A stretch of 46,913 nt of DNA from positions 1 to 46,913 of the forward strand of contig JAGWYZ010000002.1 in assembly GCA_018969115.1 (NCBI GenBank). The letters are read 5' to 3'. Both the position numbers and the translations under genes were made by a program. The notes under the pieces are model-generated. The model made no database searches, was not told the origin of the DNA, and saw nothing but the letters and a program-made list of their open reading frames with translations. The stretch is from Chloroflexota bacterium. Lineage in GTDB: Bacteria; Chloroflexota; Anaerolineae; J036; Brachytrichaceae. How positions within the stretch are numbered: the stretch's first letter is position 1; the number at the start of each line of letters is the position of its first letter. This document shows positions 6,387 through 23,481 of this stretch, one piece after another.

Positions 6387-6442
6387 AACCCTATCATAGG
6401 CGAATGGGTGTTTTTACGCTATCGGTTTCTTGTGGTGATGAT

Positions 6443-6577
6443 GGGGTGCAGGGAGCAGAGTTGTAAAGGTGCAAGTGGCAAAGCAGCAAGTGGCAAATAT
6501 GCAGGTTACAAACTAACTTTGCTACTTTGCAACCTGCAACTCTGCTCCCTGCACCCTGCTACTCTGCCACCTGCCGA
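6443..6577. repeat. Heptanucleotide-period self-complementary tract downstream of the ABC gene
   Basis: Perfect 20-bp arms gggtgcagggagcagagttg (6444-6463) / caactctgctccctgcaccc (6537-6556); 7-nt register e.g. GCAACCT GCAACTC TGCTCCC TGCACCC TGCTACT CTGCCAC. Confidence 0.8.
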
Positions 6578-8382
6578 AACTGACGACGATACAAATCGGC
6601 ATACAAGCCATCAAGCGCTAACAATTCATCATGTTTGCCATGCTCGACAATCTCGCCATCTTTTAGCACCAACACCGCATCGGCATCACGAATGGTGGAG
6701 AGGCGGTGGGCGATGACGAAACTGGTGCGCCCTTTTAACAATTTGCTCAAGGCTTTTTGAATGAGCGACTCAGTATAGGTATCAACCGACGAGGTGGCTT
6801 CATCGAGGATGAGGATGCGTGGGTTGGCGAGAATGGCACGCGCGATGCCAATCAGTTGGCGTTGGCCTTGGCTGAGACCGCCGCCGCGCTCACCCAACAC
6901 TGTTTTATAACCCTCTTTCAGACGTGCAATAAATTCGTGGGCGTTGGCGGCCTTGGCGGCGGCTTCGACCTCGGCATCGCTGGCGTTTAAGCGCCCATAA
7001 CGAATGTTATCGGCGATGGAACCGGCAAATAGGAAGCTGTCTTGCGGAACCGCCCCCATTTGTTGGCGCAAACTGGCGCGGGTAAATTGTTGCACATCTT
7101 TACCATCAACTGAAATTTTGCCCGCCGATGGTTCGTAAAAGCGACTGAGCAAATTGATGATAGTGGTTTTGCCAGCGCCGGTAGGGCCAACAATGGCAAC
7201 GGTTTGCCCAGCTTTGGCCTCGAAAGACACCGCGTTTAACACGGGTTTGGCGGGGTCGTAGGCGAATGAGACATGATCAAATGCGATATTGCCTTGAATG
7301 GGCGGCATCGCACAATCGGGGCAAGCCTCGTTTTCATTAGGGCCGTCTACCAATTCAAAAATGCGTTCGGCCCCAGCAAATGAAGATTGAGCCTGAGTGT
7401 AAAACGTGCTAAGTTGTTGCAGCGGTCTAAACATAGTTTGCACATAAGCCAAAAACGCCACCACTGCGCCAATCGTAAGCTGGTCATTGATCGCCAACCA
7501 GCCGCCGTAACCAGCCACAATGGCTGTCGCCACCGTAGACAAAAATTCGACTAAAGGGTTAAAGGCCGAAGTAATGGCGGTGGCGTTCATATTGGCGTTG
7601 CGGTTAGCGGCGTTGCGCTCTGAGAAACGGCGTTGATTGGCCTCGGTGCGGTTAAAGGCTTGGGCCACTTTTACCCCAGCAATTTCTTCTTGTAGATCAG
7701 ATGATACATCGCCAATAGTGCGGCGGGTGCGGCGATAGGCGTTGCGGGCTAATTTCGAGAAAAAGTCGGTCGAGAACAGCATCACTGGGATGACGCTAAA
7801 ACTTGCCAGCGCCAACATCCAATTCTGAAAAAGCATGGCGATGATAGTAGCAAAAAGTGCCAAAATGCCGCCCAACATTTGAATAAGGCCTTGCCCTAAA
7901 AAGTTGTTGATGGTGTCGGTGTCGTTAACCAAGCGGCTCATGACATCACCGACTGGGTTTTTGTCAAAATAATTGAGCGGTAGCGCTTGTACTTTCTTAA
8001 AAATGTCTTCGCGCAAGGCCATTAAGGTTTTTTGGGTCACTACCGACATCGCCACAATTTGGTTGCGTCCGGTGATGAACATGATGGCGAAGATGACAAG
8101 CAATATGGCTAAACTTTGCCACAAGCCAGTGGTTAGGGCCAAACGGGTGGCACTATCGGCTGCGGGTCGCACAAATTGGTCAATCGAGCGACCTAGCAAA
8201 AATGGCCATGCTGCCTGACAAATGGCATTGAGGATAGTTAAAATAAGCACGCCGATGATTTCGCGTTTAAAGGGCTTGACATACCCCCATAACCGCTGGG
8301 CGGCATAAGTTTGATTTTTGGGTTTTTCGGCCTCGACTTGGGCCATGGATTGGATTGAGCCGTGTGGGCCACCGCGCATCAT
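6559..8382 (-). CDS. ABC transporter, fused permease/ATP-binding exporter (MsbA/MdlB-like)
   Basis: TM region, Walker A GPTGAGKTT, signature LSQGQRQLIGIARAIL, Walker B ILILDEATSSVD. Confidence 0.95.
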   Translation of the reverse strand: MMRGGPHGSIQSMAQVEAEKPKNQTYAAQRLWGYVKPFKREIIGVLILTILNAICQAAWPFLLGRSIDQFVRPAADSATRLALTTGLWQSLAILLVIFAIMFITGRNQIVAMSVVTQKTLMALREDIFKKVQALPLNYFDKNPVGDVMSRLVNDTDTINNFLGQGLIQMLGGILALFATIIAMLFQNWMLALASFSVIPVMLFSTDFFSKLARNAYRRTRRTIGDVSSDLQEEIAGVKVAQAFNRTEANQRRFSERNAANRNANMNATAITSAFNPLVEFLSTVATAIVAGYGGWLAINDQLTIGAVVAFLAYVQTMFRPLQQLSTFYTQAQSSFAGAERIFELVDGPNENEACPDCAMPPIQGNIAFDHVSFAYDPAKPVLNAVSFEAKAGQTVAIVGPTGAGKTTIINLLSRFYEPSAGKISVDGKDVQQFTRASLRQQMGAVPQDSFLFAGSIADNIRYGRLNASDAEVEAAAKAANAHEFIARLKEGYKTVLGERGGGLSQGQRQLIGIARAILANPRILILDEATSSVDTYTESLIQKALSKLLKGRTSFVIAHRLSTIRDADAVLVLKDGEIVEHGKHDELLALDGLYADLYRRQFRQVAE

Positions 8383-8492: not shown

Positions 8493-8810
8493 ACTTTTTT
8501 CTATTAGCCGAAATTTAATCGATCCAGCTAACCGAGAGGATATTCAACGTAATCTTCAATTTATTTCCCCTAATTTTTTTTCATTCTTGTTTATGCGGTT
8601 GTTAAGCGCGGGATATTTACATAACAAGGCTATTGGCTCGCATATCAGTGGTGGTGTCTTATGGCAAATACGACTTTAGACTGATTTTTAATGCGAACAC
8701 CAATGTGTTATGTCGGGTCGTGGCTACTGGTTGCACCAATGACAAGATGTATTACCCCGATGGGTATCATGGCTGGGGGGATTCGTTGAATGGTTGAATA
8801 GTTAGCTGGC

Positions 8811-8873
8811 GACTCATAAGTCACGAGTCATCAATCAACCAATCAACCATCCAACCAATTAACCAATTAACCC
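8811..8873. repeat. 7/8-nt period degenerate tract
   Basis: ACTCATA AGTCACG AGTCATC then AATCAACC AATCAACC ATCCAACC AATTAACC AATTAACC; overlaps the 3' end of the downstream CDS. Confidence 0.75.
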
Positions 8874-11800
8874 ACCAGCTAGCACCTCAGCCAAATGCAG
8901 CGCCCTGCGATCGGTGGTGTGTCCGATTTGTTGACGGCAACTGATGCCAGCAGCAACCACAACATCGTCATTATTTAATTCACGAATCGTTGGCGCAAGG
9001 CGATGCTCACTCATCTTGAGCGAGATGTCATAGTGTTCGGCCTCATAACCAAAGGTGCCAGCCATGCCACAACAACTACTGTCGATCTCTGTCACGGTTA
9101 CACCCGGCAAGCGTTTTAGCACATCGATCGTCGCTTTGCCACCCACTAACGCCTTTTGGTGACAATGGGTATGAACAACAATTTTTGATTTCAGAGTTTG
9201 AATTCTGGATTTTGGATCAAACTTATCAGATAACATTGCCCAGTTTTTGTTCACATAGTCATCAAACAGCACACATTGTTTGGCTACAACCGCGAGACGT
9301 GGGTCGTTGGGCAGCAAGGCAGCGTAATCATCGGTCACGGCTGACCAATCACTCGGCTCAATGAAGATGATGGGCAAGCCTTGTTGTGCCAGCGGGTAAA
9401 GCGCGTCGATGGCGTGTTTGGCGGTGGCGCGGGCCAATGGGATCATGCCTTTGGACAAGGCTGGGCGACCAGCATCGGTGACGCCCGGCAACACAACCTC
9501 ACAACCCATGGCAGCCAACACCTCAGCCGCCGCCGCCGCCACATGTGGGTAAACATAAGTGTTCATCGTATCGGCAAACAACACCACCTTCTCAACACCC
9601 TGATCTCCTCCTTCCTTCTCTTTATTCTTAATTCTTGATTCTTGGTTTTTGATTTTCAAAAACGGTTTGGCCGAAAAATGTGGCAAGGTGCGTTTGGCGC
9701 TAATGCCGAGCGTGCGCTCGAATAGGGCTTTGATCGGCGACGCGCTTAGCATGGCATTGGCCAAACCGGCCAGCGGGCCGCTGCTAAAACGTGCCAACAT
9801 ATCGATATTGGCAAACAAAAAGTCGCGCACGGGGCGTTGATTGTGCGAATAATATTGCGCCAAATATTCGGTTTTTATACGCGCCATGTCAACCGACGAT
9901 GGGCATTCGGCTTTGCAAGCCTTGCAGCCAACGCACAATTCCATCGTCTGATACAAACGTGGGCTAAACATGGCATCTTTGGGCAACAAACCCGATGATG
10001 CGGCCCGCAACATATTGGCCCGCCCACGGGTGGCATGTTCTTCTTCGCGGGTGGCAATAAAACTCGGGCACATCGCGCCAGTCGTCGTTTTGCGGCACAC
10101 CCCGGCCCCGTTGCACATCTCAATCTCCATGAGAAAAGGAGAGGAAGGTGCTGAGTGCTGCGTGCTAAGTGCTGAGTCATGACTCATGACTGGTGACTCA
10201 ACCCCTTGCCCACTTAATTCTTGGCTCTTGGCTCTTGGCTCTTGGCCCTCTCCCTCTCCCCAATGCAAATGCGTCTTAATCTCGATCGGTTTGTAGTCGG
10301 GGCCAATACGCAAATGATCGCCGATGCCAGCGGGTGGGCCATCGACGGTGACAAGGTTGCCGGGGTTAAACAGGTTGTCGGGGTCAAAGGTGTGTTTGAC
10401 CTGTTTAAACAACCCATACAAATCTTTGCCATAAAAACGCTCACTTAGCCAACTGCGTAACCGCCCATGCGCATGTTCCGAGGCCATCGCGCCGCCATAT
10501 TCGCCCAAAATGCTGCACACAAACTCGGCAATCAGCTTCATCTTTTCAACTTCGCTGCCGTGTTTCAGGTTGAGAATAGGCCGAATGTGCAAACAACCAG
10601 CACTGGCGTGGGCATAATAGGTCATTCGCACGCCCAAATCGCGGCAATATTGCTCGATGCGCCCAATATATTCGGCCAAATGTTCAGGCGGCACGGCAGT
10701 ATCTTCAACAAAGGGCAACGGTTTCCAATCACTGCGGGCGCTCATCATCAGCCCCAAGCCCACTTTGCGCACTTTCCACACATTGGCTTGTTTTTGTGGG
10801 TCATAAATCACATTAATGGGGCCAGTGCTGGCACCACGTGCGGCTAAATGGGCAATCAGACCGTCACATTTGCTGCGCAATTCAGCGTCACTATCGCCGG
10901 TATATTCAACCGCCAAAAAGCAAAAAGCCTCGCTTTGTAAAAAGGTTTTCTTAAGCCGTGCAAATTCGGGGATATTGTCGGCAAAACGCAGACTCATGTC
11001 ATCAACCAACTCAATCGCATCGGGTTGGGTTTCGAGCATGGCGGGGGTCGCCAATAATGAGGCCATAAGGTTGGGAAACTCGACAATCACCAGCGCCAAC
11101 TTTTTGGGACGCGGGACCAGTGCCAGCTTTAGCTCGGTAATGGTTGCCAGTGTGCCTTCGCCGCCGCAAATGGCATCCCCCAGAAAAAAAGCCGAAGGCG
11201 GCTGAATATGACCATAAGGCGGCACATGATTGATGCTGCCATCGCGGATAAAACGGGCGAGATTGTAGCCGCCACTGCGCCGCCAATGTTTGGGCGTGCC
11301 ATAGCGAATGGCGGCGCGGTTGCTTTCATCACTGAGCAAGGCGCTCATGCTGCGGTAAATGTCGCCTTCGCGCCCGCTTTTTTGGCGGTGCCAGTCAAGC
11401 TGGGCGGCATCGAGCGGTTTAATGTGTGCAATTGAGCCATCGTTGAGCAAGCACGTCATCTCAAGCACATGGTCTGCCGTCATGCCATACAACACTGAAT
11501 GCGCCCCACTGCTGTTATTTGACACAATGCCACCAACGGTGGCACGTTCAGCACTGGCTGGGTCAGGGCCAAATTGCAGCCCGTGCACCTTGGCGTGCCC
11601 ATTCAGCACATCAAGCACCACCCCGGGTTGTACCCGCGCCCAACGCTGTTCAGGGTTTATCTCAAGAATGTGATCGAGGTGGCGGCTGGTGTCGATGATG
11701 AGGGCCGAATTTACCCCTTGCCCACACAAACTGCTGCCGCCACCGCGTGGCAACAGCGGCATCTTATATTTGTGTGCCAACTCGACTGCGGCTTGCACAT

Positions 11801-11960
11801 CATCCATTGTTTTGGGGATGAGCACGCCGAGTGGCATGACCTGATATGGGCTGGCATCGGTGCTATAGAGCAAACGGCTGTAATGATCATCACGCACCTC
11901 GCCGGTGACATGACGGCGCAGCTCAGCTAAAAAATCGGAAATGGGTGTTGCGGTTTTCAT
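8859..11960 (-). CDS. YdiJ/GlcD-like FAD-linked oxidase fused to 4Fe-4S and CCG (GlpC-like) domains
   Basis: FAD-binding LLPRGGGSSLCGQGVN; MEIEMCNGAGVCRKTTTGAMCPS and LCVGCKACKAECPSSVDMARIK Fe-S motifs; HCHQKAL...SCCGMAGTFG CCG domain; 1033 aa. Confidence 0.93.
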   Translation of the reverse strand: MKTATPISDFLAELRRHVTGEVRDDHYSRLLYSTDASPYQVMPLGVLIPKTMDDVQAAVELAHKYKMPLLPRGGGSSLCGQGVNSALIIDTSRHLDHILEINPEQRWARVQPGVVLDVLNGHAKVHGLQFGPDPASAERATVGGIVSNNSSGAHSVLYGMTADHVLEMTCLLNDGSIAHIKPLDAAQLDWHRQKSGREGDIYRSMSALLSDESNRAAIRYGTPKHWRRSGGYNLARFIRDGSINHVPPYGHIQPPSAFFLGDAICGGEGTLATITELKLALVPRPKKLALVIVEFPNLMASLLATPAMLETQPDAIELVDDMSLRFADNIPEFARLKKTFLQSEAFCFLAVEYTGDSDAELRSKCDGLIAHLAARGASTGPINVIYDPQKQANVWKVRKVGLGLMMSARSDWKPLPFVEDTAVPPEHLAEYIGRIEQYCRDLGVRMTYYAHASAGCLHIRPILNLKHGSEVEKMKLIAEFVCSILGEYGGAMASEHAHGRLRSWLSERFYGKDLYGLFKQVKHTFDPDNLFNPGNLVTVDGPPAGIGDHLRIGPDYKPIEIKTHLHWGEGEGQEPRAKSQELSGQGVESPVMSHDSALSTQHSAPSSPFLMEIEMCNGAGVCRKTTTGAMCPSFIATREEEHATRGRANMLRAASSGLLPKDAMFSPRLYQTMELCVGCKACKAECPSSVDMARIKTEYLAQYYSHNQRPVRDFLFANIDMLARFSSGPLAGLANAMLSASPIKALFERTLGISAKRTLPHFSAKPFLKIKNQESRIKNKEKEGGDQGVEKVVLFADTMNTYVYPHVAAAAAEVLAAMGCEVVLPGVTDAGRPALSKGMIPLARATAKHAIDALYPLAQQGLPIIFIEPSDWSAVTDDYAALLPNDPRLAVVAKQCVLFDDYVNKNWAMLSDKFDPKSRIQTLKSKIVVHTHCHQKALVGGKATIDVLKRLPGVTVTEIDSSCCGMAGTFGYEAEHYDISLKMSEHRLAPTIRELNNDDVVVAAGISCRQQIGHTTDRRALHLAEVLAGGLIG
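9183..9217. repeat. Intragenic heptad tract (TTTTGAT TTCAGAG TTTGAAT TCTGGAT TTTGGAT)
   Basis: Five 7-nt units in register, in-frame inside the FAD/Fe-S oxidase, contributing KSRIQTLKSKI. Confidence 0.75.
9624..9658. repeat. Intragenic heptad tract (ATTCTTA ATTCTTG ATTCTTG GTTTTTG ATTTTCA)
   Basis: Five 7-nt units in register, in-frame inside the FAD/Fe-S oxidase, contributing KIKNQESRIKNKEK. Confidence 0.8.
10148..10260. repeat. Intragenic composite heptad tracts
   Basis: GTGCTGA GTGCTGC GTGCTAA GTGCTGA GTCATGA CTCATGA CTGGTGA CTCAACC (10148-10203) and TTAATTC TTGGCTC TTGGCTC TTGGCTC TTGGCCC (10214-10248), in-frame, encoding EGQEPRAKSQELSGQGVESPVMSHDSALSTQHS. Confidence 0.88.
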
Positions 11961-14886: not shown

Positions 14887-15028
14887 GGGTTGATTATACA
14901 AAGCACGGCCTTAAACTAAGATTTTTGCCAACACCTTAAAAATATCAATGCTTTGATCTTAAATAAATTTTTGTATACAAATTGGCATACAATTAAGCAT
15001 ACAAACAAAATCATATTTCATCATTTTA

Positions 15029-15147
15029 GGACTTACGCACAACTTAACTTTTCTACCACGAAGAACACAAAGACCTCAAAGATTAAGCCAATTTCATATC
15101 TTTTCTTTGTGCCCTTTGTGGTGAAATTTTTTGATTCGCGTAAGTCC
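15029..15147. mobile_element. MITE-like palindromic element (TIR ggacttacgc) upstream of putA-like gene
   Basis: ggacttacgc (15029-15038) / gcgtaagtcc (15138-15147); inner arms carry 9-nt period units ACCACGAAG AACACAAAG ACCTCAAAG / CTTTGTGCC CTTTGTGGT. Confidence 0.65.
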
Positions 15148-15165
15148 CAATTTAAAAGGTGACCC

Positions 15166-18100
15166 ATGCAATTGACCCACAAATTTTCGCTCCCGTTAAT
15201 CAAACCCAAGCCAATACTGCCACCAACTGTTGTAGCGGCGCAAGCACTCGAAACATTGACGCAAGACTTAGGTAAACATTTATTGACGGCCTTGCGCAAA
15301 CATGGGCGGGGGGGCATTGCTGAATCGCTGTATGCCCAAATGTTGAAATTGAGCACCAGCGATGAAAAATTGAAGGTCGAGCTATTTCGCTTTGTCGATG
15401 TATTGCCAACGTTAAAAACCCCCGAAGCCGTGATGCAACATTTAAACGAATATTTGCGTCAGCCGGGTGTAAAGCTGCCGGCTGGCGGCAGCAAATTGCT
15501 AACACTGGCAGGAAAATTGCCCGGGGGTGAGCGGCTAAGTGAGCAGGTGGTGCAATTGGGGGTTCAAAGCATGTCGCAGCGCTTTATTGCAGGTAAAAAT
15601 GCGAATGAAGTGACGAGTAAATTATTGGCTTTGCGCCGGAACAATATGGCGTTTACCCTCGATTTGCTGGGCGAGGCCGTGATTAGCGAAACTGAGGCCG
15701 AAAGCTATCAGCAGAAATATTTAGACATTATTGCTGCCCTTACCGAGCGGGCGCGTAGCTGGTCGGCCAATTTGCAAACCGACGGCGTGCCTTGGGGGAA
15801 TACAAAAACTTCCGAGGTCTTGAAGACCTCGGAGGTTTCAACCATGCCGCGTGTCAATGCTTCGGTCAAGTTGTCATCGCTATATGCGCGGTTTGACCCA
15901 ATGGCAGCCGAGGCCACCGCCGAAGCGGTAAAAGCCCGTTTGCGCCCCATTTTGCGGCTGGCGCGTGAACGCAGCGCTCAAATTCACATCGATATGGAGC
16001 AATATGACTATCGTGATATGACGCGCCGTATTTTTATGGAGATTGTGAATGAGCCAGAATTTTGTGATTGGCGCGATATTGGGATTGTGGTGCAGGCTTA
16101 TTTGCGCGACAGCGAAGAAGATTTGCTATTGTTGTTGGCATGTGCCAAACAACGCGGTACCCCATTTTGGATTCGGCTGGTGAAAGGGGCTTATTGGGAT
16201 TATGAGACGATGTTAGCGGCCCAACGCGATTATGAGTCGCCCGTATTTGCCGAAAAATGGCAGACCGATGACAATTATGAGCGCTTGACCGAGATGCTGA
16301 TCGCCAATTATCAATATTTGCGCCCAGCCATCGCTTCGCACAATGTGCGATCGGTGGCCCATGCGCAAGCGGTGGCCCAACAACTTAATTTGCCTTTGGG
16401 AACGGTTGAATATCAGGTTTTATATGGCATGGGTGAAGCAATGGGGCGAACCTTGAGCGCCCAAGGCAACCGCGTGCGAGTGTATGTGCCATTTGGCGAA
16501 TTGTTGCCGGGCATGGCTTATTTGGTGCGGCGCTTGCTTGAAAATACCAGCAATGATTCATTTGTCAAACAAGTGGAATTAGATCATTGCGCGGCCAAGG
16601 CGTTGTTGGCCCCGCCGACTCGTAGAGACGTGCCGGTGGCGCGTCTTTCGCCGCCACCGGCGATAAAAGACGCGCCACCGGCGATAAAAGACGCGCCACC
16701 GGCGATAAAAGACGCGCCACCGGCGATAAAAGACGCGCCACCGGCGCGTCTCTACAGGAACAACCCATTGATTGATTTTGCCAAAGCTGCGAATCAAAGC
16801 CAAATGCAAACGGCCTTGACGTTGGTGCAAGGCCAATTGGGAATGACCGTGCCAATTGTGATTGGCGGCAACCGTGAAGCGGGTGAACAGTTGGTAGCGC
16901 GTGAAAACCCATCAAAGCACAGCCAAGTGGTGTGCCAAGTACAATATGCCAGTGTGGCGCAAGCCCAACGTGCGGTGGCCTTAGCCGAGCATTTGTTGCC
17001 GATATGGCGCGATGTAAGCGTGCGTGAGCGGGCCGATGTGTTGCGGCGGGTGGCGGCTGAATTTGAACGGCGGCGGCACGAAATTAACGCTTGGATGGTG
17101 ATGGAGGTGGGCAAGCCTTGGCGTGAGGCCGATGGCGATTTGGCCGAAGCAATTGATTTTTGCACCTATTATGCCGATGAGATGGCGCGATTGGCGCAGC
17201 CACGCAAGCGCAATGTGCCGGGTGAATGGAATGAATATAGATACGAAGCTCGTGGCGTATCGGTCATCATCGCGCCGTGGAATTTTCCGTTGGCGATTTT
17301 GACCGGCATGACGGTGGCGGCGTTGGTGGCGGGGAATACCGTCGTCATCAAACCTGCCGAGCAATCATCGCGGGTGGGTTACTTTTTGATGGAAGCGCTT
17401 GAGGCGGCGGGTTTGCCCAAGGGCGTGGCAAATTTTGTGCCGGGCGCGGGTGAAACGGTTGGCGCAGCGTTGGTGGCAGACCCGAGAGTCGCCGTCATCA
17501 ATTTTACCGGCTCAAAAGCCGTCGGCTTGCATATTATGAAAGAGGCCGCCGACATTAAGCCCGGCCAGCGTGAAATTAAGCATGTGGTGGCCGAGTTGGG
17601 CGGCAAAAATGCCATTATTGTTGATAGCGATGCCGATTTGGATGAGGCGGTGTTGGGTGTATTGCACTCGGTGATCAGTTTTGGTGGGCAAAAATGCTCG
17701 GCGTGTTCGCGGGTGATTGTGGTTGGCCCCAATTACGACGCTTTTTGTGCGCGGCTCAAAGACGCCATTCACAGCGTCAAGATTGGCGCGGCTGACGACC
17801 CCGCCACGTCATTGGGGCCGCTGGTCGATGCCGCCTCGCAAGCGCGTATTCAGCGCTATATCGAGATCGGCAAACAAGAGGGTAAATTGTTGGCTAGCAT
17901 CGAACCAAGCGCCGAGTTAGCCGCGCAGGGGCATTATGTGCCTGCCGCCGTGTTTACCGATTGCGACCCACGTGGGCGGTTGTGCCAAGAAGAAATTTTT
18001 GGGCCGGTGTTGGCGGTGCTGCGGGCGAGGGATTTGGACGAAGCCATGCGCATCGCCGATGACACGCCGTATGCCTTGACGGGTGGGTTTTACTCACGCT

Positions 18101-19004: not shown

Positions 19005-19050
19005 AAATATAGCTTGACCATATCACATGAGCAAATGCAAACCAGTTTTT

Positions 19051-19103
19051 GCCGATTCCCGATACCTGCTCTGCTTACGGCAGGGCAGGTATCGGGAATC
19101 GGC
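19051..19103. repeat. Perfect 19-bp inverted repeat between alaS 3' end and Uma2 gene
   Basis: gccgattcccgatacctgc (19051-19069) / gcaggtatcgggaatcggc (19085-19103), 15-nt spacer. Confidence 0.8.
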
Positions 19104-19127
19104 ATACGTCTTTATTGGTCTGTCATT

Positions 19128-21851
19128 TTATTTTACTATGCGCCCCACCAAACCGGCTGTAAGCGCAAGCGCCTCGTCAAGTTTGCTGACATCTTTACCG
19201 GCGGCTTGAGCCAAGGTGGGTTTGCCGCCACCACGACCATCGACGACGGCGGCGATTTCACGGATGAGTTTGCCAGCATCTAACCCACGCTTATTGAGAT
19301 CGGGCGACACACCAACGACCAGCGCCGCCTTATCGGCAATAACCGCGCCGAGCACACATACCCCGCTGGCATATTTTTTGCCAAACCATTCGGTCATTTC
19401 GCGCAGCAAATCGGCATTTTCGGCGCTAACGCGAGCCGATAATACATTAATGCCGTTGACTTGCGTTACCTTGGCCAGCGATGTTTCAAAATGTGCGCGT
19501 GCCAATTCACGTTGGGCTTTTTCGAGCGCTTTTTGGGTTTCGCTCAGTTGTATGCTTAGCTTGCGCACGGCATCGATTGCCTGATCGGTGGGCACGCGCA
19601 AGACTTGGGCCACTTGGGCAATTTGCTCGGTTTGTTTGCGGGCCAATTCGACCACGCCGTGCCCAGTGACCACTTCGATACGGCGCACACCCGCCGCCAC
19701 CGCACCCTCGCTTACAATCAACGCGCCGCCAATATCGCCAGTGCGCGAGACATGCGTGCCGCCACACAATTCGGCGCTAAATGATGGCTCGCCGGGTTGA
19801 CCAATACGCACGACTCGCACCACATCGCCATATTTATCGCTAAAGAAGGCCATTGCACCACTGGCGAGGGCCTCTTTGTAGTTTTCTTGTGCCCATGCCA
19901 CCGGCATATTGACATAAATCGAGTCATTCAGCATGTCACCAACGGCTTCTAGCTCATCGGCAGTGAGCGCGGTGGTATGCGAAAAGTCGAAGCGTAGCCG
20001 GTCGGGCGAAACCGCCGAGCCTTGTTGTTGCACATGGGTGCCTAAAATGCTGCGTAAAGCACTTTGCAGCAAGTGGGTGGCCGTGTGGTTGCGGGCAATG
20101 TGGCCTCGGCGCAGCACCTCAACTTGCACATTGCACGATTCACCCACTCGTGGTTCACCCGCCAATACTTCACATTCATGCACAATCAAGCCAGCCACTG
20201 GCTTGCTCACACCTGTTACTTTTAATTGCCATGTGCCAATCGTGCTGTGAATTTCGCCGGTGTCGCTCACTTGCCCACCGCTGTCGGCATAAAAGGGCGA
20301 GGCAGCTAAGATCACATCAACCTTCTCACCCACCACCGCATTCGCGGTCGGCTCACCTTCGCGCAAAATCCCAACCAAGGTTGTGGTCATGGTGAGCGCA
20401 TCATAGGGGTTGTGCGTTACACCACTGGCAGGCAGTTTGCCCTCGGCCTTCAGTGTGTCGAAGGCTTCGGCATAAGCGCGGGCCGCATCAAAATGACCGA
20501 CAAATTTGCCGGATGAGGCCTTGCGTGCCACTTCTTTTGAGGCCTCACGGGCAGCTTCGTAGCCTGCCTCATCAATAACAATGCCTTTTTCACGTGCCAC
20601 ATCACGGGTGATTTCGAGTGGCAAGCCATAGCTTTCATACAGACGAAAGGCATCAGTGCCCGGGAGGATTGGGGATTGAGGATTAGGGATTGAGGATAAA
20701 TTATTAATCCCTAACCCTTCAATGACCTCATCGAGACGCGCCAAACCGGTATCGAGGGCGCGGGCAAAACGCTCTTCTTCGCCGTGAATGGTATTGAGAA
20801 TGTGGTCGCGGCGCGTGCGCAGGTCGGTGTAATAGCCGCCCATTTTGTCGATGACGGCATCACTTACTTTGTAGAGGAAAGGATCATTTAAGCCCAACTT
20901 TTGGCCATAGCGCATGGCGCGGCGCATAATCATGCGCAAAATATAGTTGCGCCCAACATTGCCCGGCAACACCCCATCACCAATGAGAAACGCAGCAGCG
21001 CGGGCGTGATCGGCAATGACGCGATATGGCACATAATTGTCGCGGCGTTGAGCATCGGTTTGCCCAGCTAGGGCTTGGGTGCGCAACATAATATCAGTGA
21101 ACAAATCGCTGTCATAATTATTTTCGCCGCCTTGTAATAATCGACATAGCCGCTCGAAGCCCATGCCGGTATCTACGCCGGTTTGCGGTAAATTATGCAA
21201 TTCGCCGTTTTCGGTGCGGTTAAATTGCATAAAGACCAAATTCCAAATTTCGACGGTGGTTTCATTTTGGTCATCGTCATTATTCACCCATTTGGCATCG
21301 TTATCACCATTTTTGCCCATGAAATAATGAATTTCGGAGTTGGGGCCGCATGGACCGGTTGGCCCCATCGACCAAAAATTGTCTTTTTCACCGAAGCGCA
21401 AAATGCGCGACGACTTGATGCCGACTTTTTGCCACAAGGCTTCTGATTCATCGTCATTTTTGTAAATGGTGAACCACATACGCTCGCGCTCAAGACCATA
21501 TTCGCCCTCAAGCAATTCAAGCGCAAAACGCATGGCATCGGGCTTGAAATAATCGCCAAACGAGAAGTTGCCGAGCATTTCAAAAAAAGTGTGATGGCGT
21601 TTGCTAGGGCCCACGTTTTCGAGGTCGTTATGCTTGCCACTGACGCGCATTACCTTTTGTGATGTAGCTGCACGCACATATGAACGCTTTTCTAGCCCCA
21701 AAAAAGCATTTTTGAATTGGTTCATGCCGGCATTGGTAAATAAAATGCTTTTATCGCCGTGTGGGATGAGTGACGACGAAGCCACAATTTCGTGGCCGTT
21801 GCGTCCGAAATAATTGAGGAATGTGCTGCGAATCTCGTTGCTTAACTTCAT
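19128..21851 (-). CDS. alaS: Alanine--tRNA ligase
   Basis: MKLSNEIRSTFLNYFGRNGHEIVASSSLIPHGDKSILFTNAGMNQFKNAFLG; HTATHLLQSALR; CGGTHVSRTGDIG. Confidence 0.97.
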   Translation of the reverse strand: MKLSNEIRSTFLNYFGRNGHEIVASSSLIPHGDKSILFTNAGMNQFKNAFLGLEKRSYVRAATSQKVMRVSGKHNDLENVGPSKRHHTFFEMLGNFSFGDYFKPDAMRFALELLEGEYGLERERMWFTIYKNDDESEALWQKVGIKSSRILRFGEKDNFWSMGPTGPCGPNSEIHYFMGKNGDNDAKWVNNDDDQNETTVEIWNLVFMQFNRTENGELHNLPQTGVDTGMGFERLCRLLQGGENNYDSDLFTDIMLRTQALAGQTDAQRRDNYVPYRVIADHARAAAFLIGDGVLPGNVGRNYILRMIMRRAMRYGQKLGLNDPFLYKVSDAVIDKMGGYYTDLRTRRDHILNTIHGEEERFARALDTGLARLDEVIEGLGINNLSSIPNPQSPILPGTDAFRLYESYGLPLEITRDVAREKGIVIDEAGYEAAREASKEVARKASSGKFVGHFDAARAYAEAFDTLKAEGKLPASGVTHNPYDALTMTTTLVGILREGEPTANAVVGEKVDVILAASPFYADSGGQVSDTGEIHSTIGTWQLKVTGVSKPVAGLIVHECEVLAGEPRVGESCNVQVEVLRRGHIARNHTATHLLQSALRSILGTHVQQQGSAVSPDRLRFDFSHTTALTADELEAVGDMLNDSIYVNMPVAWAQENYKEALASGAMAFFSDKYGDVVRVVRIGQPGEPSFSAELCGGTHVSRTGDIGGALIVSEGAVAAGVRRIEVVTGHGVVELARKQTEQIAQVAQVLRVPTDQAIDAVRKLSIQLSETQKALEKAQRELARAHFETSLAKVTQVNGINVLSARVSAENADLLREMTEWFGKKYASGVCVLGAVIADKAALVVGVSPDLNKRGLDAGKLIREIAAVVDGRGGGKPTLAQAAGKDVSKLDEALALTAGLVGRIVK
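20664..20719. repeat. Intragenic heptad tract in alaS
   Basis: GAGGATT GGGGATT GAGGATT AGGGATT GAGGATA AATTATT AATCCCT AACCCTT in 7-nt register; encodes part of GLGINNLSSIPNPQSPILPG. Confidence 0.88.
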
Positions 21852-21975: not shown

Positions 21976-23481
21976 ATGGATTACGACATCATCATCGGCA
22001 TAGAAACGCATGTCGAGTTAGACACCCATAGCAAAATGTTTTGCACCTGCTCGGCCAATGGTTTTGGGGCCGAGCCAAATGTGCATGTATGCCCAACCTG
22101 TGCCGGGATGCCGGGTGCATTGCCGGTCATTAATAAGCGGGCAGTCGAATTTAGCATGATGCTAGGCGTGGCGCTCAATTGCAGCATCAACCAGCATACG
22201 TTTTGGGAGCGTAAGAGCTATTGGTATCCTGATTTGCCAAAGGGATATCAGATCACCCAATATCAATATCCGATGTGCTATGACGGCTACCTCGAATTTG
22301 ATGTGCGTGATCTGAGTGGCGGCTGGAATGAACAAAGTTACCGCAAACGGGTACGTATTCGCCGCGCCCATTTAGAAGAAGATACCGGAAAATTGACCCA
22401 CGCCGGACGTTCCTCGTATGTTGATTACAACCGCAGTGGCGTGCCCTTGCTCGAAATTGTGACTGAGCCAGATATTTTTAATGCGCATGAGGCGTATGCC
22501 TATTTGAGCGCATTGCAAGACATTGTGCGTTATCTCGGTATTAGCACTGGCGATATGGAAAAAGGCGCGATGCGTTGCGAGCCAAATATGAGCTTGCGGC
22601 CAAAAGGCACAGATGCTTTTGGCACCAAAGTCGAGATCAAAAACCTCAACTCGCTTAGTGCCGTGCGTGGGGCGATTGCGTATGAAGCCAAACGCCAGTC
22701 GGCGGCATTGGATAAAGGTGAGAAAATTCGCCAAGTGACCTTAGGCTGGGACGATGTGCGTGGGGTGACGGTGGTGCAGCGTGAGAAGGAAGATGCGCAT
22801 GATTATCGCTATTTCCCTGAACCTGATTTGCCGCCGTTAGATGTAAGTGACGCATGGTTGGATGAGGTGCGGGCGCAAGTGCCAGAATTGCCCATTGCCA
22901 AACAAGCCCGTTATCAAAGCGAATTTGGGTTAAGCGCCTATGATGCAGTGCAACTGACAAATAATAAAGCGGTGGCAGAGTGGTTTGAAAAAGGGATATC
23001 GGCGGGAAAGGATGAAGGCCCTGTTCATCCTTCATCCTTCATCCTTCATCCTTTCGCAAAGCGCCTTGCCAATTTCATCATTGGCGATTTGACGCGGCTG
23101 ATGAATGCCAGTGGCACAGCCATCAACCAAATTAAGATAAAACCAGCCCAGTTGTTGGGGTTGGCAAAATTGGTTGAAGCGCAAACAATTAATAGCAATA
23201 CGGCTAAATTGGTGATTGAGGAAATGTTTAACACGGGTGCTGAGGCGCAAGCCATTGTGCAAGCCAAAGGCTTAGCGCAAGTGAGCGACAGTAGTGTGCT
23301 TGAAAAGACGATTGGAGATGTGCTCGCTGCAAATCCGAAAGAAGTGGAGAATTATTTGAAAGGCAATGAGAAGTTGTTGCAATTTTTGGTCGGGCAGACG
23401 ATGAAGGCCAGCAAAGGCAAAGCCAATCCGCAGATGATTCAGAGTTTAATGAAGGCCGCGCTGGAGAGGCGACGACTATAA
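21976..23481 (+). CDS. gatB: Asp-tRNA(Asn)/Glu-tRNA(Gln) amidotransferase subunit GatB
   Basis: MDYDIIIGIETHVELDTHSKMFCTC...VCPTCAGMPGALPVINKRAVE...RSSYVDYNRSGVPLLEIVTEPD; GatB/YqeY C-terminal domain. Confidence 0.96.
   Translation: MDYDIIIGIETHVELDTHSKMFCTCSANGFGAEPNVHVCPTCAGMPGALPVINKRAVEFSMMLGVALNCSINQHTFWERKSYWYPDLPKGYQITQYQYPMCYDGYLEFDVRDLSGGWNEQSYRKRVRIRRAHLEEDTGKLTHAGRSSYVDYNRSGVPLLEIVTEPDIFNAHEAYAYLSALQDIVRYLGISTGDMEKGAMRCEPNMSLRPKGTDAFGTKVEIKNLNSLSAVRGAIAYEAKRQSAALDKGEKIRQVTLGWDDVRGVTVVQREKEDAHDYRYFPEPDLPPLDVSDAWLDEVRAQVPELPIAKQARYQSEFGLSAYDAVQLTNNKAVAEWFEKGISAGKDEGPVHPSSFILHPFAKRLANFIIGDLTRLMNASGTAINQIKIKPAQLLGLAKLVEAQTINSNTAKLVIEEMFNTGAEAQAIVQAKGLAQVSDSSVLEKTIGDVLAANPKEVENYLKGNEKLLQFLVGQTMKASKGKANPQMIQSLMKAALERRRL
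23006..23055. repeat. Intragenic heptad tract (TTCATCC x4) with 13-bp inverted arms in gatB
   Basis: gaaaggatgaagg (23006-23018) / ccttcatcctttc (23043-23055); TTCATCC at 23024-23051; encodes KDEGPVHPSSFILHPF. Confidence 0.9.

Follow-up and report, generated by a model that had tools for sequence, protein, structure and literature searches.

The stretch of DNA analysed here (the window) spans 46,913 nt of contig JAGWYZ010000002.1, from a Chloroflexota metagenome-assembled genome (MAG; 4.6 Mb, 472 contigs, 94% complete). An open reading frame at 8859-11960 on the minus strand encodes a protein of 1033 aa with the Pfam domains FAD_binding_4 (residues 43-180), FAD-oxidase_C (285-535), Fer4_8 (612-690) and CCG (928-1012). 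By sequence, its closest solved relative is LctD (7qh2), and orthologues are present in many of the relatives searched. Judged from its sequence, the product is a fused FAD/4Fe-4S/CCG dehydrogenase of the YdiJ type (fused GlcD-GlcF, or D-lactate dehydrogenase-like). The gene and its 3' end carry several arrays of 7-nt units (heptads):

10131-10257, minus strand: site 1, in-frame heptad insert of 127 nt, about residues 569-610, directly ahead of Fer4_8
10148-10198, plus strand: mosaic heptad array GTGCTGA / GTCATGA / CTCATGA within site 1, read on the gene strand as SALSTQH...
10219-10249, plus strand: heptad array TCTTGGC x4 within site 1, read on the gene strand as EPRAKSQ
9591-9659, minus strand: site 2, heptad insert LKIKNQESRIKNKEKEGGDQGVE in the linker past the 4Fe-4S domain
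9180-9225, minus strand: possible site 3, degenerate heptads DPKSRIQTLKSKI ahead of VVHTHCHQKA
8780-8880, no strand assigned: inverted heptad element over the 3' end of the gene (z -3.9, phase-preserving shuffles)

A first-pass annotation of this DNA had described site 1 as an in-frame, stop-free linker peptide, derived from two abutting heptad tracts and lying between the FAD and Fe-S domains. Translation of the whole frame is indeed uninterrupted and passes through the site as HLHWG-EGEGQEPRAKSQELSGQGVESPVMSHDSALSTQHSAPSS-PFLMEIEMCNGAG, between the end of FAD-oxidase_C at residue 535 and the start of Fer4_8 at 612. Both unit types were recovered by Tandem Repeats Finder (GTGCTGA x4.3 at 10148-10177; TCTTGGC x4.0 at 10219-10246). 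The two tracts do not abut, but are the ends of one mosaic that shares a single 7-nt phase (10169 to 10218 is 49 nt, or 7x7) and is bridged by the drifting units GTCATGA, CTCATGA, CTGGTGA, CTCAACC, CCTTGCC and CACTTAA. The insert proper is narrower than the 10129-10262 first proposed, with limits set at 10131-10257 by comparison with the sister species described below. Identity at lag 7 across 10129-10262 is 0.60 (76/127 positions), a value reached by none of 20,000 Markov-sampled sequences; it falls to 0.52 at lag 14 and 0.44 at lag 21, with the remaining tested lags at 0.21-0.35. The TCTTGGC unit recurs at about 20 loci of the same genome (reversed control, no matches). The ends of the site form an imperfect inverted repeat (GGGAGAGG...CCTCTCC), and the hairpin signal is weak (z -2.2 with phase-preserving and -0.56 with dinucleotide shuffles). 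Rfam returned no match in the window, and an AlphaFold model of the protein run without an alignment was uninformative (mean pLDDT 35.7).

We aligned 28 YdiJ sequences, including the window's own and 26 from outside the genus. Site 1 is occupied in only two of them: the window (127 nt) and the congeneric MAG 'Anaerolineae bacterium AQU-02' (166 nt; contig JAHBAL020000542.1 is an example of its contigs), whose enzyme is 85% identical to the window's over residues 1-783. None of the 26 orthologues from outside the genus has residues there. The first-pass annotation had proposed a lineage-specific insertion and named homologous residues in heptad-free orthologues as evidence against it; the alignment bears out the proposal. 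The lag-7 signal, the intact frame and the restriction to the genus together support a repeat-derived linker. AQU-02 carries other heptads at the site (TTGAGAG on the left, CTCAACT/CTCAACC on the right), which form a strong inverted pair with a predicted fold of -85 kcal/mol including flanks (z -9.7, phase-preserving shuffles). On our reading of this array, a single TTCAGAG unit stands at a position in which TTGAGAG would create a TGA in frame. Position, frame and hydrophilic character are thus retained between the sister species, but the units themselves are replaced and the sequence is wholly different.

Occupation of the same site in two species, together with the repeated striking of the site 2 linker within the family, could indicate a linker under selection for a function, such as spacing the FAD and Fe-S domains or providing a binding region. 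We consider this very unlikely. The sister species show no residue-level conservation at site 1, and their inserts differ by 39 nt in length. The remaining aligned orthologues do without the insert, and comparable inserts lie in many unrelated proteins.

Elsewhere in the gene, the site 2 insert spans 23 aa in the window against 60 aa in AQU-02, and the same linker holds heptad arrays in L021 and L023, two species from a different genus of this family. In-frame heptads occur in the YdiJ enzyme of species from two other genera of the family. In five of them (L012, L022, L025, L029 and L023) the heptads lie in the loop ahead of the second cysteine motif, and L025, from another genus, has heptad arrays at the site 3 loop. 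At the 3' end, the array at 8859-8877 provides the final residues and the TAA stop of the gene; the surrounding element has dispersed relatives in the window's genome, in AQU-02 and in another congener, G003.

The heptad genes of the window that were checked against orthologues all carry real inserts (3/3). Besides the YdiJ-type gene, they are alanyl-tRNA synthetase (AlaRS) and GatB:

20664-20717, minus strand: in-frame inverted heptad insert GLGINNLSSIPNPQSPIL in AlaRS (gene 19128-21851; z -4.9)
23024-23053, plus strand: in-frame insert TTCATCC x4 (VHPSSFILHPF) in GatB (gene 21976-23481)

A further congener, G002, is shorter in the AlaRS insert region. In GatB, AQU-02 is shorter than the window by exactly 7 aa (21 nt) and G002 by 13 aa. 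A candidate seed in GatB of AQU-02 (quasi-palindrome GATGAA...TTCAT) was rejected, as its 5-bp inverted repeat does not exceed chance. Heptad peptides were also found in ArgRS (DALR domain), UvrA (three sites), Mfd (three sites), PriA (ahead of the helicase domain), between the domains of a class II aldolase-SDR fusion, and in a MoeA fusion, a 2-oxoacid dehydrogenase E2, an RMKL-like methyltransferase and a glycosyltransferase. The same peptides recur across unrelated proteins (EPRAKSQ, SALSTQH, NPQSPIP, NPKSKIQ, STLNPQP and HPSSFIL).

All data come from MAGs, and the match to Mfd in AQU-02 is spread over two contigs near a heptad site, as would be expected if the repeats were collapsed or chimeric products of assembly. 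Such an artefact is extremely improbable. All inserts that were examined in alignments leave the frame intact, the YdiJ inserts occupy the same positions in two independent MAGs, and the frame and strand biases described below are unlike what an artefact would produce.

Five length differences between orthologues are exactly 21 nt: UvrA sites 1 and 3 (the window's genome and G003), GatB (the window's genome and AQU-02) and two in one further gene (L072:18437-19193, same pair). UvrA is 97% identical between the window's genome and G003 over residues 1-590; at one of its heptad sites the former has AAGGATG AAGGATT AGGGATG AAGGATG and the latter a single AAGGATG, and at the other the extra 21 nt belongs to G003. 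Each of these steps equals three heptads, or seven codons, as would follow if net length within a gene has to be divisible by three. Intergenic gaps between the same two genomes measure 7, 7, 14 and 84 nt, but also sizes such as 8, 13 and 45. The in-gene steps match what slippage in 7-nt steps, filtered by reading frame, would predict. A filter at the protein level is also visible in the observed strand bias: where the unit is stop-free both ways, the more hydrophilic strand is read in 22 of 26 in-gene arrays (p=5e-4). Units that can be read only by including Trp or Cys make up 2/51 in genes vs 51/186 between genes (p=1e-4).

The genome-wide load is specific to the 7-nt period. In 623 kb of the window's genome we counted 143 period-7 segments, with at most 18 for any other period from 4 to 13 (period 8: 18) and none in shuffles. 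AQU-02 and G003 have about 20-23 such segments per 100 kb, and G002, of the same genus, has none in 150 kb. Intergenic arrays reach 46-91 per 100 kb vs 0.6-5.5 for coding ones. These counts use gene calls from our own script, and all densities come from samples of the genomes; part of the sample for the window's genome was picked for the GAGCCAA unit or other repeats. In samples chosen without regard to repeats, the densities are 46 intergenic and 5.5 coding per 100 kb for the window's genome (385 kb; 43 and 16 arrays, respectively), and 83 and 5.0 for AQU-02. The coding census of G003 found no heptad array in 174 kb; a description of its genes as heptad-free was dropped, as its UvrA has degenerate heptads. 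The near absence of heptad arrays from G002 (samples L111-L120) makes this species a natural negative in the search for a cause.

Beyond the genus, tandem GAGCCAA was found in 3 of 298 genomes of the class (the window's genome, AQU-02 and G021, the last with one match, equalled by the reversed control), yet a GTDB-wide scan gave at least 117 stretches in Bacteroidota, Spirochaetota, Acidobacteriota, Pseudomonadota, Planctomycetota, Chloroflexota and others. Heptad invasion is therefore widespread, though patchy, and what it does to coding sequences may be a general phenomenon. Among the matches listed, 17 lie within long ORFs, which are mechanical ORFs and include two from AQU-02 itself; 14 read EPRAKSQ and 3 LALGSWL. 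Long GAGCCAA arrays occur in contigs of Salinicola, Dyella, Lysobacteraceae and Polyangiaceae (L201, L193, L175 and L158), in distant phyla.

Intergenic elements are mostly inverted: comparison of the left half with the reverse complement of the right half gives a median score of 16-20, whereas halves taken from different elements score 6, as does direct similarity. Two examples lie in the window:

2806-2911, no strand assigned: intergenic heptad hairpin (MFE -53.5, z -10.5)
6440-6574, no strand assigned: intergenic heptad hairpin overlapping the end of ORF 6559-8382 (MFE -72.4, z -8.5), with dispersed relatives

Most in-gene arrays have no inverted arm. Palindromy is clear in the intergenic copies, in AlaRS, in the AQU-02 YdiJ insert and in L022 and L029, and weak in the YdiJ insert of the window. 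Strong predicted hairpins between genes could mean that the arrays work at the RNA level, as terminators or attenuators, with the in-gene copies being misplaced examples or pause sites. This appears quite unlikely: across three genomes the arrays lie between 13 divergent and 13 convergent gene pairs, numbers that would differ for terminators. A terminator role was rejected on this lack of depletion between divergent genes.

Dispersed intergenic copies, a palindromic architecture and in-frame insertion into unrelated genes, as known for Rickettsia palindromic elements (RPEs; PMC10969869), would also be expected of mobile palindromic elements (MITE-, RPE- or REPIN-like) that are transposed as units by a trans-acting transposase, with the heptads as their internal sequence. 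We regard this as unlikely. The elements range from about 20 to about 370 nt, their units vary from one to the next, and comparison by eye revealed no common ends. A Y1/RAYT transposase (PF01797) has no match in the window's genome (94% complete) and is present in heptad-poor G002; it was rejected as the mobiliser, its distribution being mismatched with that of the arrays. Because the window's genome is without a Y1 transposase, the arrays are not REPINs.

Repeats of other kinds are present in the window. A dispersed palindromic, MITE-like repeat of about 125 bp (15027-15152; ends GGACTTACGC...GCGTAAGTCC, 8-nt periodic core, ACACAAAG-like) has dozens of copies in the window's genome, AQU-02 and G003, and none was seen in G002. 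A near-perfect palindrome at 19010-19128 (GCCGATTCCCGATACCTGC...GCAGGTATCGGGAATCGGC) has dispersed relatives in the window's genome and G003. Positions 1-660 share about 95-97% identity with the ends of several contigs from the window's genome, AQU-02 and G003 and are probably the end of an insertion sequence; no nucleotide match to the neighbouring genes was found in G003. A perfect 21-nt tandem repeat without an internal heptad (16652-16746; PPAIKDA x4.5, in a 1051-aa ORF) has fewer copies in AQU-02. Coding scores from a genome-trained model are far lower over 24500-46900 than over 1-24000, which suggests other codon usage or a foreign origin.

The best explanation, to which we assign a probability of roughly 0.8, is that the YdiJ peptide is a translated heptad-repeat insertion, a product of slippage among dispersed heptads that has been filtered by frame and by protein tolerance. 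Except for sampled G002, the genus bears a heavy load of dispersed 7-bp arrays, and most arrays have an inverted partner with which they could form a hairpin. Arrays would lengthen, shorten and swap units in 7-nt steps via replication slippage, and hairpin templating probably keeps both arms alike; that one arm templates the other is suggested because the arms are alike while units vary along each. An array within a gene would persist only when its net length is divisible by three and when it is read on a stop-free, preferably hydrophilic strand, presumably in a surface loop or an inter-domain linker. The YdiJ insert would be one such survivor, and the outcome would be near-neutral loops that are probably disordered. 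An empty site 1 was found in no close orthologue among the genomes compared; the insertion step itself may have been expansion of a seed or arrival from elsewhere. Several observations count against this explanation. The 39-nt difference between the two species at site 1 of YdiJ keeps the frame without being a multiple of 21, the hairpin signal of the window copy is weak, in-gene arrays mostly lack an inverted arm, and plain slippage would not obviously swap a whole unit family at a single site. A bolder and more doubtful proposal is a mutational engine particular to this lineage, which would assemble inverted heptad arrays and keep them uniform, working in 7-nt steps, and would continually supply essential enzymes with peptides that change by quanta of seven residues. 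It would act by hairpin-templated growth, perhaps tied to a particular polymerase or repair function that differs in G002.

Heptamers are over-represented among bacterial simple sequence repeats (SSRs) and are the commonest SSR class in many bacteria (PMC4692102; PMC4679880); a survey, as quoted in PMC4679880, suggested that 7 nt is the length that contacts the polymerase. The arrays described here have the period-specific 7-nt tandem structure of heptanucleotide arrays of the STRR (short tandemly repeated repetitive) or SSR type and, like those of Cyanobacteria, are dispersed, chiefly intergenic and patchy among relatives (PMC4692102). STRRs use one or three units in a genome, whereas the present arrays use many; here intergenic inverted hairpins are the rule, and presence in frame in core enzymes is recurrent. 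In the P6b stem-loop of the Nostoc trnL intron (TDNGATT and NNTGAGT classes), a hairpin of 7-nt repeats likewise sits at a fixed site, the unit class is repeatedly swapped with the structure kept, and single heptads are gained or lost (PMC4476775). P6b is one RNA locus, whereas the heptads here are genome-wide and include translated regions. TAACTGA repeats of marine Beggiatoaceae are also dispersed heptads with strand-dependent coding (LSVISYQ vs stops), and their author expected tolerance between modular protein parts (PMC4679880); unlike the present arrays, they comprise just one unit, lie mainly ahead of start codons and show no hairpin architecture.

The first-pass annotation had likened the outcome to RPEs, which are palindromic repeats found in frame in unrelated genes (PMC10969869). 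The likeness is apt, and stronger than was put, because inverted heptad hairpins make up many of the intergenic copies and several of those in genes, and the arrays share with RPEs insertion in frame into unrelated genes. RPEs form families of about 150 bp with a conserved peptide, whereas the heptads here vary in unit and length and have no consensus beyond the 7-nt period; lacking both family consensus and conserved peptide, the arrays are not RPEs. The enterobacterial repeats RU-1/2/3 are also intergenic and in frame inside genes (PMC2759123), but are fixed sequences of 103-168 bp and not heptad arrays. Heptad STRRs and in-frame RPEs are known separately, and their combination at this scale looks like a new variation on them; the open-access literature yielded no previous account of such arrays within genes of Chloroflexi, which does not prove absence. 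The present case joins both: its heptad hairpins are free of a consensus, numerous, placed in frame within core enzymes and changing in 21-nt steps.

The genus is thus a natural experiment on the heptad dominance of bacterial tandem repeats, with three heptad-rich species and one nearly free of them, arms that stay alike and coding inserts that shift in 21-nt steps. A translated-repeat origin accounts for the like peptides (EPRAKSQ, NPQSPIP, SALSTQH and HPSSFIL) across unrelated proteins, and provides a route by which non-coding repeats can turn into loops of essential enzymes, with no evident impairment of the protein.
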